A program made the translations under genes and the position numbers. Under the pieces are notes generated by a model. It was not told where the DNA came from. It did no database searches and was given only the letters and a program-made list of their open reading frames with translations. Positions 25,697 through 29,785 of a stretch of DNA of 64,000 bases are shown here, one piece after another. The stretch comes from Streptomyces sp. NBC_00162. GTDB lineage: Bacteria > Actinomycetota > Actinomycetes > Streptomycetales > Streptomycetaceae. The number at the start of each line of letters is the position of its first letter. The stretch's first letter is position 1. The stretch is from the NCBI RefSeq assembly GCF_024611995.1, contig NZ_CP102509.1, positions 6,262,001 through 6,326,000 of the forward strand. Direction: 5' to 3'.

Positions 25697-25720
25697 GGGG
25701 GTGCTCATCAGAGCACCCCC
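25697..25720 (+). terminator. terminator after the SIMPL gene
   Basis: GGGGGTGCT and AGCACCCCC form a perfect 9-bp stem around CATCAG, 24 bases after the stop. Confidence 0.75.
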
Positions 25721-25729
25721 ATGCACATT

Positions 25730-25768
25730 CAACAATTGTCAACAAGCTTTTGCTCAACGGTTGTTGAG
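25730..25768. promoter_or_regulatory. cluster of TTGT/CAAC inverted half-sites upstream of pyk
   Basis: An AT-rich patch contains ACAATTGT (25732-25739), TTGTCAACAA (25736-25745) and CTCAAC-N4-GTTGAG (25753-25768), three short inverted repeats with a shared TTG/CAA core. It lies 53-91 bases upstream of the pyk start and looks like an operator region. Confidence 0.5.
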
Positions 25769-25820
25769 TGGACACCAGGAACCAATTTCCTACTCCCTGG
25801 TAGGGGAATACGCTCGCCCC

Positions 25821-27248
25821 ATGCGCCGAGCGAAAATCGTATGTACCCTGGGCCCCGCCACCGACTCATACGACCAGATCAAAGCCCTGGTCGAAGCCGG
25901 AATGGACATCGCCCGCCTCAACCTCAGCCACGGCACCTACGCCGAACACGAGGAGCGCTACCAGCGCGTACGCAAAGCCTCCGACGAAACCGGCCGCAGC
26001 GTCGGCATCCTCGCCGACCTTCAAGGCCCGAAGATCCGCCTCGGCCGATTCCGCGAAGGCCCCGTACTCCTTGAACGCGGCGACGAGTTCACCATCACCG
26101 TCGAAGACCACCCAGGCGACCGCCACACCTGCGGCACCACCTACAAGGGACTCGCCACCGACGTCACCACCGGCGAACGCATCCTCGTCGACGACGGCCG
26201 CGTCACCCTCGAAGTCACCGCAATCGACGGCCCCCACGTCCGCACCCTCGTCATCGAAGGCGGCATGGTCTCCGACCACAAGGGACTCAACCTCCCCGGC
26301 GTCGCCGTCTCCGTCCCCGCCCTCTCCGAAAAAGACATCGACGACCTCCGCTGGGCCCTGCGCACCGGCGCCGACGTCATCGCCCTCTCCTTCGTCCGCA
26401 GCGGCCACGACATCCAAGACGTCCACCGCATCATGGACGAAGAAGGCCGACGCCTCCCCGTCATCGCCAAGATCGAAAAGCCCCAGGCAGTCGAAAACAT
26501 CGACGACATCGTCGCCGCCTTCGACGGCATCATGGTCGCCCGCGGCGACCTCGGCGTCGAAATGCCCCTCGAACAAGTCCCCATCGTCCAAAAGCGCGCC
26601 GTCAAACTCGCCAAGCGCAACGCCAAGCCCGTCATCGTCGCCACCCAGATGCTCGACTCGATGATCGACAACTCCCGCCCCACCCGCGCCGAAGCCTCCG
26701 ACGTCGCCAACGCCGTCATCGACGGCACCGACGCCGTCATGCTCTCCGGCGAAACCAGCGTCGGCAAATACCCCGTCGAAACCGTCCGCACCATGTCCCG
26801 CATCGTCGAAGCGGCAGAGGAAGACATCCTCGCCAAGGGCCTCCCGCCCCTCACCGAACGCAGCAAACCCCGCACCCAAGGCGGAGCCGTCGCCCGCGCA
26901 GCCGCCGAAATGGGCGACTTCCTCGACGCCAAATTCCTCGTCGCCTTCACCCAGAGCGGAGACACCGTCCGCCGACTCTCCCGCTACCGCTCACCCATCC
27001 CCCTCCTCGCCTTCACCCCCGACCCCGCAACCCGCTCCCAACTCAACCTCACCTGGGGCGTCGAAACCTTCCTCGGCCCCCACGTCGACTCAACCGACGC
27101 CATGGTCGCCCAAGTCGAAGAAGAACTCCTGCGCATCGGCCGCTGCGTCCCCGGCGACACCGTCGTCATCACCGCCGGCTCACCCCCCGGCGTCACCGGA
27201 TCCACCAACCTCGTCCGCGTCCACCGCATCGGCGACGCAGTCCGCTGA
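25821..27248 (+). CDS. pyk: pyruvate kinase
   Basis: A 475-residue glycolytic enzyme converting phosphoenolpyruvate and ADP to pyruvate and ATP. MRRAKIVCTLGPAT begins the barrel, LNLSHGTYAEH and ADLQGPKIRLGRF follow, the active-site block is IAKIEKPQAVENIDDI with its catalytic lysine, and VATQMLDSMIDNSRPTRAE is intact. The C-terminal allosteric domain is present. ATG 25821 gives the family start; the longer frame from 25701 would translate the operator region. Isolated transcription unit ending at a strong hairpin. Confidence 0.96.
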   Translation: MRRAKIVCTLGPATDSYDQIKALVEAGMDIARLNLSHGTYAEHEERYQRVRKASDETGRSVGILADLQGPKIRLGRFREGPVLLERGDEFTITVEDHPGDRHTCGTTYKGLATDVTTGERILVDDGRVTLEVTAIDGPHVRTLVIEGGMVSDHKGLNLPGVAVSVPALSEKDIDDLRWALRTGADVIALSFVRSGHDIQDVHRIMDEEGRRLPVIAKIEKPQAVENIDDIVAAFDGIMVARGDLGVEMPLEQVPIVQKRAVKLAKRNAKPVIVATQMLDSMIDNSRPTRAEASDVANAVIDGTDAVMLSGETSVGKYPVETVRTMSRIVEAAEEDILAKGLPPLTERSKPRTQGGAVARAAAEMGDFLDAKFLVAFTQSGDTVRRLSRYRSPIPLLAFTPDPATRSQLNLTWGVETFLGPHVDSTDAMVAQVEEELLRIGRCVPGDTVVITAGSPPGVTGSTNLVRVHRIGDAVR

Positions 27249-27611: not shown

Positions 27612-28070
27612 ATGACGATCAAGGACTACCCCCAGGACCAACTCGCCGCCCAGCCCATCGGCTACTGGAGCCGCGAAGCCGCCACCCTCGTCATAGGCGG
27701 CCTCCGCGCCGCCCTCGCCGAGGAGAACCTCACCCAGCCCCACTGGTGGACCCTCAACCACATCGCCGGCACCCCCGGCACCTGGACCCGCGCCGCCCTC
27801 ACCGCGAAGCTGGCCCCGTTCGACGACCAGAACACCGACTTCGAGACCGTGTACGCGGACCTCGCAGCCCGCGGCTGGCTCACCGAGACCGACGGCGCGT
27901 TCACCCTGACCGACGAGGGCGAGGCAGGCCGCCTCCGCGCCCACGCCCGCAACGCGGCGGTCCACGAGCGCATGCGGGAAGGCATCGACGACGCGACGTA
28001 CGCCGCCACCATCGACACCCTCCGCCGCCTGGTCGCCAACCTGGGCGGGGACGGCGACCTCCCGGTCTAG
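27612..28070 (+). CDS. MarR-like winged-helix regulator
   Basis: A 152-residue protein. Residues about 40-105 fit a winged helix: LTQPHWWTLNHIAGTPGTWTRAALTAKL, then VYADLAARGWLTETDGAFTLTDEGEAGR as recognition helix and wing. This matches the MarR/PadR-like proteins often annotated as MarR family in Streptomyces. The effector and target are unknown. Its stop overlaps the convergent LAGLIDADG gene stop within CTAG, so no terminator separates the two. Confidence 0.72.
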   Translation: MTIKDYPQDQLAAQPIGYWSREAATLVIGGLRAALAEENLTQPHWWTLNHIAGTPGTWTRAALTAKLAPFDDQNTDFETVYADLAARGWLTETDGAFTLTDEGEAGRLRAHARNAAVHERMREGIDDATYAATIDTLRRLVANLGGDGDLPV

Positions 28071-28882
28071 TGCTTGGGCCCGATGTGGGCGTCCATCAGC
28101 GCCACGGAGTCCTTGCGCGCGATGGAGACGTTGAACGGGTCGCTGCCCCGGGCCAGGATCGTCCACTGGACGCCGACCTTGGTGAGGGTGTCGGTACAGA
28201 GCTTCCGGATGTCGTCCGACTTGTTGGTGAAGAAGTACCGGGGGTACTCGTAGCGCTTCTTCACCCCGCCGACCATCCGGGTGGTCCAGTTGGTGATCCG
28301 ACACCCGTCGGAGCGGATCAGCCCCCGGATGAACTCCCACGGGTGAGCGTCGACGATCTCCTGCTGCCAGTCCTCGAGCACGATCCGCCGCTCGTGCTTC
28401 TTGCCGGGCCCGTGCTGCGGGAACAGGCAAGTCCAGTGGCGCGTGTAGGACTTGACCTCGACGCACCCCTGTCTGCGTACGCGGCCTACCTTGGGCAGGG
28501 GCAGGACGAGGTGCATTGCTTCCTCGGCGGCGTCGATGAGCCCTGGCCAGGACGCGTCGCAGTAGATGGACAGGTGGTGCTGCTTGCACTTCGAGATGAT
28601 GTGCCCGTCGCCGAGGTAAAGGCCTAGAAGATAGGCGTACGTCCGCTCATCGAATTCCCGGCCCGTGCACTTCGGGCAGTCGGTCGGCCGATCGTACGGT
28701 TCGCCCCGGTGCTTACGGTCCTGGTGCCGCCACCAGCCCACGGTGCCCCGGGGGACGCCGAAGTGTTCGGCCACCGTCCGGTTGGTCACACCTCGGCGTA
28801 ACAGCAGGACCGCTTGTTCGCGTATCGAAGGATTGTGCTCCACAACCGCGAGCTTCGCCGCTAATCGTCCGGTTGGCCGCAA
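28067..28882 (-). CDS. HTH-LAGLIDADG protein (homing-endonuclease-like)
   Basis: A 271-residue stand-alone protein. Residues 18-52 form a helix-turn-helix (IREQAVLLLRRGVTNRTVAEHFGVPRGTVGWW), C69 and C72 form one CxxC, and two LAGLIDADG helices follow: LLGLYLGDG at 85-93 and FIRGLIRSDG near 184-193, both ending in the acidic residue needed for catalysis (D92, D192). The layout recalls WhiA, a LAGLIDADG fold turned transcription factor. Leucines 7 and 28 are TTA codons, read only by the bldA tRNA. TTG 28882 is a tentative start; GTG 28843 is possible and would remove the first TTA. The tRNA gene lies 72 bases upstream on the same strand. Confidence 0.8.
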   Translation of the reverse strand: MRPTGRLAAKLAVVEHNPSIREQAVLLLRRGVTNRTVAEHFGVPRGTVGWWRHQDRKHRGEPYDRPTDCPKCTGREFDERTYAYLLGLYLGDGHIISKCKQHHLSIYCDASWPGLIDAAEEAMHLVLPLPKVGRVRRQGCVEVKSYTRHWTCLFPQHGPGKKHERRIVLEDWQQEIVDAHPWEFIRGLIRSDGCRITNWTTRMVGGVKKRYEYPRYFFTNKSDDIRKLCTDTLTKVGVQWTILARGSDPFNVSIARKDSVALMDAHIGPKH

Positions 28883-28954
28883 ATCGAAGGTACGTTCACC
28901 GTGACGAGTGAAGATCGCGAAATTTGCTTAGCGACCTTGGAAATGAAGGAGAAG

Positions 28955-29027
28955 TACCCCGGGTCGGATTCGAACCGACGCTGAATGGGTTTTGAATCCA
29001 TCGCCTCTACCGCTGGGCTACCGGGGC
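28955..29027 (-). tRNA. tRNA with CAA anticodon and class I body, annotated as tRNA-Leu-like
   Basis: A 73-base cloverleaf. The acceptor stem is GCCCCGG with CCGGGGT (G-U first pair), A73 follows and CCA is not encoded. The T arm GTCGG-TTCGAAT-CCGAC is canonical. The D arm is a 3-bp GCC/GGC stem, as in E. coli tRNA-Gln. The anticodon stem ATGGA/CCCAT has an A-C mismatch next to the loop TTCAAAA, giving CAA, which reads Leu UUG. The variable loop is only 5 bases, whereas true tRNA-Leu is class II with a long arm. It may be a degenerate or repurposed tRNA. Confidence 0.8.
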
Positions 29028-29128
29028 CCCTTTGAAACGAAGGATACCGAAGACCCTCCGTGTCACAAACATACAGGAGCTCGGTAGGCTCGGGGGAGCA
29101 GTAACGCCCCGTATCAAGGAGCCCTCAA

Positions 29129-29785
29129 GTGACCGCCTCGCACGAGTCGACGCCCACGCCCGACGCCGACCAGTCGCACGTTCCGCCGCTGACGACCCGC
29201 GTCGTCATCGCCGAGGACGAGGCGCTCATCCGTCTCGACCTGAAGGAGATGCTCGAGGAGGAGGGGTACTCCGTCGTCGGTGAGGCCGGGGACGGGCAGG
29301 CGGCCGTGGAGCTGGCCCGCGAGCACCGGCCGGACCTCGTCATCCTCGACGTGAAGATGCCGGTCCTGGACGGGATCTCCGCCGCCGAGAAGATCGCGGA
29401 GGAGTCCATCGCCCCCGTGCTGATGCTCACCGCGTTCTCGCAGCGCGACCTCGTCGAGCGGGCCCGTGACGCCGGTGCCATGGCGTACCTGGTGAAGCCG
29501 TTCAGCAAGAGCGACGTGGTGCCGGCCATCGAGATGGCCGTTTCCCGGTTCGCCGAGCTGAAGGCGCTGGAGAAGGAGGTCGCGGACCTCTCGCTCCGGC
29601 TGGAGACCCGCAAGCTCGTCGACCGGGCCAAGAGCATCCTGCAGACCCAGTACGGGCTCTCCGAGCCGGCCGCCTTCCGGTGGATCCAGAAGACCTCCAT
29701 GGACCGTCGCATGTCCATGCAGCAGGTCGCCGAGGCGGTCATCGAGGACGCCGAGGAGAAGAAGCAGAACGCCGCCAACGGCTGA
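29129..29785 (+). CDS. pdtaR: ANTAR-domain response regulator, PdtaR type
   Basis: A 218-residue antitermination regulator. Residues 22-140 are the receiver, with E29/D30/E31 and phospho-acceptor D74 in LVILDVKMP, and the conserved Lys in LVKPF. Residues about 150-205 are the ANTAR RNA-binding domain (LVDRAKSILQTQYGLSEPAAFRWIQKTSMDRRMSMQQVAEAV). Phosphorylation promotes binding to paired RNA stem-loops and lets polymerase pass terminators. In mycobacteria the kinase is PdtaS, usually encoded elsewhere; none is adjacent here. The GTG start has AAGGAG upstream. Confidence 0.94.
   Translation: MTASHESTPTPDADQSHVPPLTTRVVIAEDEALIRLDLKEMLEEEGYSVVGEAGDGQAAVELAREHRPDLVILDVKMPVLDGISAAEKIAEESIAPVLMLTAFSQRDLVERARDAGAMAYLVKPFSKSDVVPAIEMAVSRFAELKALEKEVADLSLRLETRKLVDRAKSILQTQYGLSEPAAFRWIQKTSMDRRMSMQQVAEAVIEDAEEKKQNAANG

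Follow-up and report, generated by a model that had tools for sequence, protein, structure and literature searches.

The window (the whole stretch of DNA analysed, 64 kb from Streptomyces sp. NBC_00162) carries on its minus strand, at 28955..29027, a class-I-shaped tRNA-Leu(CAA) gene of 73 nt that does not encode its CCA end and that is identified by ARAGORN, by Rfam, and by conservation and pairing among its relatives. ARAGORN calls tRNA-Leu(caa) on this strand, with an end that adds one base (28954), and the Rfam covariance model RF00005 scores the gene at 55.9 bits compared to a gathering score of 29 (E 2.3e-09), the only gathering-level RNA-family match in the window. Both programs agree with an earlier sequence-only reading, which had proposed a class-I-shaped 73-base tRNA with a CAA anticodon, and the letters themselves bear out the details that it listed: a variable loop of 5 nt (TCAGC), a D stem of 3 pairs, the anticodon loop TTCAAAA, and an A.C mismatch at pair 31-39. 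The T arm and acceptor stem that it called canonical are so in length (5 and 7 bp, respectively), but the acceptor stem opens with a G1.U72 wobble. The likening of the D stem to that of tRNA-Gln confers no special mark, as the class II leucine tRNAs of this genome can be read likewise from their sequences. Since neither stem length is altered, an allo-tRNA of the 8/4 or 9/3 type is excluded, and with 5 nt in place of a long arm the gene does not belong to class II. The long variable arm is widely taken as a mark of bacterial tRNA-Leu, and, as that reading had stressed, a class I shape is indeed unexpected where class II is the rule for bacterial tRNA-Leu. What sets the gene apart from shuffled sequences is its covariance-model score and its conservation, not its folding energy (z -1.33; 17 of 200 shuffles are equally stable). 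A scan of 28800-29200 for sigma-70 promoters and terminators found nothing.

Two 15-bp imperfect palindromes flank the gene, both given on the minus strand: CCTTCGTTTCAAAGG at 29029..29043, 1 bp upstream, and CCTTCATTTCCAAGG at 28935..28949, 5 bp downstream. Beyond the upstream copy, and transcribed divergently from the tRNA, a response regulator with an ANTAR domain (29129..29785, plus strand; Pfam PF00072 and PF03861) starts at 29129; presumably PdtaR-like, it serves as the syntenic anchor in what follows. Its 17 best listed matches, among at least 119 named stretches, are from Streptomyces, at 83-93% identity. The second syntenic neighbour, at 25701..27248 on the plus strand, is an ORF with a provisional start, placed by in-frame tblastn, that we take from its sequence to be pyruvate kinase. 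Directly downstream of the tRNA and on the same strand lies an ORF of 271 aa (28067..28882) with an HTH-like start and, by eye, two LAGLIDADG-like motifs. The sequence-only reading had seen here a LAGLIDADG gene with TTA codons; the two TTA codons are present (codons 7 and 28), while the motifs remain a judgement by eye, Pfam returning only a sub-threshold HTH_23. Nor is the location suggestive in the way proposed, because TTA concerns the UUA reader bldA rather than a UUG reader, and because the ORF also stands beside class II tRNA genes. Its presence varies among relatives: in the window's genus it was found at 13 of the 20 loci with a class I tRNA and at 7 of the 9 with a class II tRNA, so that a role for it as driver of a switch between classes is unsupported.

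To place the gene among the tRNAs of its own genome, we used an RF00005 profile search of the whole assembly (9.02 Mb, 2 contigs, 99.8% complete). Of 78 matches, 72 have an ARAGORN call; two more, each of 119 nt, are Arg(acg) and are called by ARAGORN only with introns allowed, and the remaining four, without a call, comprise three sub-cutoff fragments and one Gly-like sequence. ARAGORN at the RF00005 matches gives a leucine set of CAA, CAG, GAG (two genes), UAA, and UAG, in which the CAG, UAA, and both GAG genes are class II, the other two (CAA and UAG) having a class I shape. Neither the RF00005 search, nor BLAST, nor a class II D-arm pattern found a class II CAA gene in the genome: BLAST with the CAG gene matches, beyond chance, only itself and the two GAG genes, and the leucine D-arm pattern gives 23 matches that include four tRNAs, the same CAG, GAG (two), and UAA genes. 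The gene at 28955-29027 is therefore the only CAA tRNA found, and the only one whose anticodon matches UUG, with the bldA-type UAA tRNA a possible wobble reader in principle. One CAA gene per genome is also tabulated for six Streptomyces (Rokytskyy 2016, PMC4932002), where the shape of this tRNA passes without comment in the portion of the paper available to us. Aligned with the other tRNAs of its genome, the body of the CAA gene has no close counterpart: it scores best with tRNA-Arg(TCT), at 70% identity, and class II tRNA-Leu is absent from the 12 best-scoring bodies.

Relatives of the gene are common and well paired. BLAST with the 73 bases finds matches in 29 of 61 genomes, counting the window's own; 27 of these are class-I-shaped CAA tRNAs, and the other two (class I UAA at L050 and class I CAG at L058) were left out of the CAA locus comparison for their other anticodons. 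Adding loci from further searches, we took 60 class I CAA genes, of which 59 could be parsed (the parser dropped L221, which has an N in a loop), giving 32 distinct sequences. Standard pairs occupy the acceptor, D, and T stems and anticodon-stem positions 27-30 in all 32. This pairing is partly built into the selection: the CAA and T-loop letters were themselves selection criteria, and well-paired stems are favoured both by ARAGORN and by the parser, which requires 11 or more of the 12 acceptor and T pairs, though its only loss was the sequence with the N. Both members of a pair have changed at 10-25 (GC/CG/TA), at 11-24 (CG/TA/GC), and in 27-30 with 40-43. In the D stem, 96 of 96 cells are paired, as compared to a mean of 73 and a maximum of 81 after shuffling partners; because the sequences are related, we attach no probability to this difference. 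The tertiary pair 15-48 is A-T in 24 sequences and G-C in the other 8, with no mixed combination; the window gene is of the second kind (G15-C48). A73 and the D-loop GG are kept in 32/32.

The two irregular pairs of the window gene recur in this family. Pair 31-39 is standard in 18 of the 32 sequences and A.C in 13, each time with the loop TTCAAAA, which marks the mismatch as recurrent rather than as decay, and G1.U72 is found in 9. Stem decay, which the sequence-only reading had named as the sign of a pseudogene, is seen in none of the distinct sequences, and the conservation at this locus in other Streptomyces that it suggested checking is present there and extends well beyond. With stems kept by compensatory change, to the extent that selection for good stems allows, this is apparently a conserved, working leucine tRNA gene without a long arm. 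That reading had also asked about a long variable arm in relatives: class II forms do occur at the same locus, as described next, but the class I form itself is kept short in others.

The locus is shared by both forms. We assigned class by ARAGORN length (82-87 nt for class II, 74-79 nt for class I) and left L194, from the same genome as L135, out of both the locus counts and the regulator tree. Considering only loci that had not been fetched through the regulator, it lies within the fetched stretch in 57/57 class I cases, 27-441 bp away, and in 28/35 class II cases; of the seven class II loci without it, pyruvate kinase is present at three, and a contig of 4.6 kb carries one. A class I CAA pattern run against named public genomes gave at least 119 stretches. 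Among the matches listed, 104 are from Actinomycetota, each with an ARAGORN class I CAA call (as expected, since the pattern demands one), and 83 of these have the regulator within 1.5 kb, in genera that include Streptomyces, Mycobacterium, Rhodococcus, Bifidobacterium, Micromonospora, and Nocardioides. The 21 listed without it at this distance comprise every listed Corynebacterium, two Bifidobacterium, one Streptomyces, and others. Class I CAA calls were made in 6 of the 15 non-actinobacterial stretches among the matches listed; five of the six hold 20-31 tRNAs and the sixth holds 3, and such tRNA-rich stretches are as expected of mobile tRNA arrays. At L364 (G334:C52) we also saw an array that holds at least 17 tRNAs of odd body, a class I Leu(CAG) among them; it is probably borne by a mobile element. 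One bin (G068, loci L366 and L367) has two class I CAA genes, each with its own regulator, and is possibly mixed.

Of the 296 genomes of the class, 187 match the class I CAA pattern and 57 match the class II CAA pattern. Genome G334 alone matches both, an overlap due to chance: neither its class II match nor that of G261 holds a tRNA according to ARAGORN. With these two matches removed, 187 genomes have only class I, 55 have only class II, 54 have neither, and none has both (Fisher p 1.6e-29 for the table of class I versus class II, relatedness being ignored). When we examined 30 of the 54 genomes with neither pattern, the regulator was present in 25, and all 25 stretches contain a tRNA-Leu(CAA), 22 of class II and 3 of class I, that pattern details had missed. 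Having overlooked these 22 genes, the class II pattern is incomplete, and it shows mutual exclusion only to that extent, as class I genomes could hide a class II gene. We used a quick tree built from 110 regulator proteins (60 from class I and 50 from class II loci) as a stand-in for the species tree. It has at least 14 class changes, or at least 9 when only branches with support of at least 95 are counted; of the 98 inner branches, 47 are open, there are long branches, and the long-branch join of L042 with L226 is doubtful, drawing a warning from the tool. Whole-locus transfer is one way to such changes, since tRNA and regulator are adjacent. These comparisons are best read as repeated replacement of class I and class II bodies by each other beside the regulator.

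The flanking palindromes follow the class of the tRNA within the window's genus. Their consensus, CCTTNNNTTNNAAGG, occurs in the two tRNA-flanking copies and nowhere else in the 64 kb, and the pattern has one more exact match in the genome, at a locus without a tRNA. The upstream copy is recognized at 16 of 20 class I loci of the genus with up to 4 mismatches (8 of 20 with up to 3) and the downstream copy at 18 of 20 with up to 3, as compared to 0 of 9 class II loci in either case; as the consensus was written after viewing these same flanks, the counts are not an independent test. At 89 other loci, six downstream and one upstream match appear with up to 4 mismatches and none with up to 3, and shuffled flanks match at a rate of 1-2% with up to 4. 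Folding the tRNA together with both palindromes brings no unusual stability (z -0.38), which leaves a role at the RNA level unsupported. The palindromes may be scars of exchange or regulatory sites.

We assessed the meaning of UUG by aligning 20 ORFs of the window with stretches of three related genomes. TTG in the window faces leucine at 21 of 25 positions (12 CTG, 3 CTC, 6 TTG), the other partners being Val (two), Met, and Ile, and TTG in the relatives faces leucine at 18 of 22, the rest being Ile, Val, Cys, and Pro. Because all three relatives also have a class I CAA gene, the informative part is the set of 19 non-TTG partners, 15 of which are CTG or CTC. By its CAA anticodon and by the codons opposite TTG, the gene thus appears to be a tRNA-Leu in its decoding. 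The genome has one leucyl-tRNA synthetase (LeuRS) over the curated cutoff, weaker matches being left aside. A73 is reported as crucial for leucine identity in E. coli, unlike the anticodon and the long variable arm, and A15-U48, G18G19, and A20a are said to matter (PMC9976931, in the part available to us). The class I family keeps A73 and the D-loop GG throughout, as given above, and has A15-U48 in 24/32; a point against is that the window gene has G15-C48 instead. On balance, charging by the ordinary LeuRS is plausible. Modification of tRNA-Leu-CAA in vitro has been reported for the MiaA of M. tuberculosis (PMC9336784).

The explanation that we favour, and hold to be very probable, is that this is the sole functional CAA tRNA-Leu of its genome and hence the main reader of UUG, with a class I body charged by the standard LeuRS, at a locus where the body has been swapped repeatedly, likely by phages. 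The ordinary LeuRS would most likely recognize A73 and the D-loop/T-loop core, dispensing with the variable arm; the regulator-side locus usually holds a tRNA-Leu(CAA), whatever its class, and on this view its body has been exchanged between class I and class II many times. On this best reading the gene is a tRNA-Leu of ordinary duty and non-standard structure, and a widespread variant.

The sequence-only reading had instead proposed that the gene carries another amino acid, is a relic, or has a non-translational role. We have rejected recoding, pseudogene, and regulatory-RNA readings on pairing, codon alignment, and the evidence of the locus. A tRNA carrying another amino acid, with UUG partly recoded or with the gene as a rare missense suppressor, would account for the missing long arm and for the best-scoring bodies of its own genome (tRNA-Arg, tRNA-Met, and tRNA-Glu). 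It also has a parallel in the human class-I-shaped tRNA-Leu-CAA, which shares shape and anticodon with the window gene and is a changed tRNA-Met (PMC8450103); that tRNA is found in primates, however, whereas the gene described here belongs to a widespread, structurally conserved bacterial family. None of the 12 best own-genome tRNAs exceeds 73% identity, which argues against a recent anticodon change in a tRNA of another isotype, and with TTG aligned mostly with leucine, A73 invariant, and a class II tRNA-Leu(CAA) holding the same place elsewhere, we regard this possibility as extremely unlikely.

We assign a next to negligible probability to a pseudogene or a tRNA-like regulatory RNA. The A31.C39 mismatch and the G1.U72 wobble would be natural in either, and tRNA-Other of Bacillus cereus offers a precedent for the latter (PMC3399842), yet both irregularities recur in relatives whose stem pairs, apart from 31-39, are intact in every distinct sequence, and the genome has no other CAA tRNA that we could find. 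Very unlikely, too, is a functional but accessory tRNA, with bldA (UAA) decoding most UUG and the CAA gene used mainly outside the ribosome, for example in aminoacyl-tRNA-dependent biosynthesis; enzymes of this kind are known from natural-product pathways (PMC12945691). Against this, the class I pattern also occurs in genomes of 1.2-1.5 Mb, and the class I gene is present in Mycobacterium, Bifidobacterium, and Corynebacterium as well. Moreover, bldA mutants of S. coelicolor have been isolated and grow, so that another UUG reader must exist there, and one CAA gene is tabulated for that species (PMC4932002).

For the swapping of bodies that the favoured explanation includes, the likely route would be temperate phages that carry tRNAs, integrate in the CAA gene, and deliver in its stead a tRNA of the other class. 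Some phages are described as integrating into a host tRNA gene, destroying it, and supplying a replacement; phage Gaia is listed among them, its target in M. smegmatis being tRNA-Leu-CAA (attB-11) and its junctions having been sequenced (Guerrero-Bustamante and Hatfull, PMC10865867, as far as its text was available). The replacement tRNA-Leu(CAA) of Gaia is class II, of 83 nt. Phage Thibault (Omegavirus) has, beside its integrase, a 46-bp stretch with 97.8% identity to the 3' half of a class I CAA tRNA; this stretch is repeated exactly at two named class I loci of Mycobacterium. We infer that the M. smegmatis target is class I; likewise ATTCAAAA, which is present in the Gaia region and has the same letters as positions 31-38 of the window gene, is probably the published 8-bp core. 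If the M. smegmatis gene is class I, the published lysogeny already swaps class I for class II, which supports the equivalence of the two forms. The Gaia exchange runs from class I to class II; no exchange in reverse was seen among the phages examined, though phages bearing class I genes exist, namely Streptomyces phage Alone3 and Lactobacillus phage Bacchae. Their tRNA-Leu(CAA) genes have the same class and anticodon as the window gene but lie in tRNA arrays, unlike this single-copy chromosomal gene. A more specific proposal, which we put forward tentatively and consider rather improbable, is that the regulator-side tRNA-Leu(CAA) is an exchange site at which temperate phages, bearing a tRNA-Leu(CAA) of their own, swap body class without changing decoding, with the palindromes around the class I form in the window's genus as scars. 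Were it true, mobile elements would have replaced the whole structure of a gene with an essential task at least nine times, its meaning staying constant.

Several known tRNAs resemble this one in part. The canonical bacterial class II tRNA-Leu(CAA) shares its anticodon, its regulator-side locus, and, where seen, its discriminator A, and differs in having the long variable arm, which makes for the difference in ARAGORN length given above. Human mitochondrial tRNA-Leu(UUR) also lacks the long arm and has an A.C closing the anticodon loop (PMC9976931), but it is organellar and served by a mitochondrial LeuRS, whereas here a free-living bacterium has a single bacterial-type LeuRS over the cutoff. 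A tRNA-Leu(TAG) in a Mycobacterium tRNA cluster is likewise a bacterial leucine tRNA with a short variable loop, although, according to the part of the source available, it is an extra copy beside a normal gene (PMC6582537), unlike the short form here, which is the only CAA gene found. In the literature searched, which covered few subscription journals, we found no description of class I tRNA-Leu(CAA) as the normal actinobacterial UUG reader. If UUG is read by a class I tRNA in the 187 genomes, out of 296 sampled, that match the pattern, a single LeuRS has to serve two tRNA architectures in each such cell. An ordinary gene would then be misjudged by annotation flags for isotype mismatch, and current models of how leucine tRNAs are recognized would need revision. 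Alternation at a fixed locus would also provide natural matched pairs for testing the purpose of the variable arm, and the locus may preserve a genomic trace of phages replacing tRNAs.

Other unusual tRNA genes came to light in the same searches. The UAG leucine tRNA of this genome (G000:C1:5435979-5436054, minus strand; loci L085 and L352) is class I in shape, encodes its CCA, and is the only UAG tRNA found; relatives at 81-84% identity occur in 5 of 60 related genomes, all of one genus, and another class I Leu(UAG), at locus L359, has a different body. Three extra tRNAs on G000:C1 have a D-arm string in common, AGCGCAGAGGTCGTCGC: Asp(AUC) at 1287382-1287454 (minus strand), Cys(GCA) at 1038067-1038140 (plus), and Trp(CCA) at 4180800-4180874 (plus). 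A streptomycete tRNA-Asp-AUC has already been published (PMC9262613). Finally, two similar 119-nt tRNA-like Arg(acg) genes lie far apart and in opposite orientation, at G000:C1:801218-801336 (minus strand) and 8386194-8386312 (plus strand).
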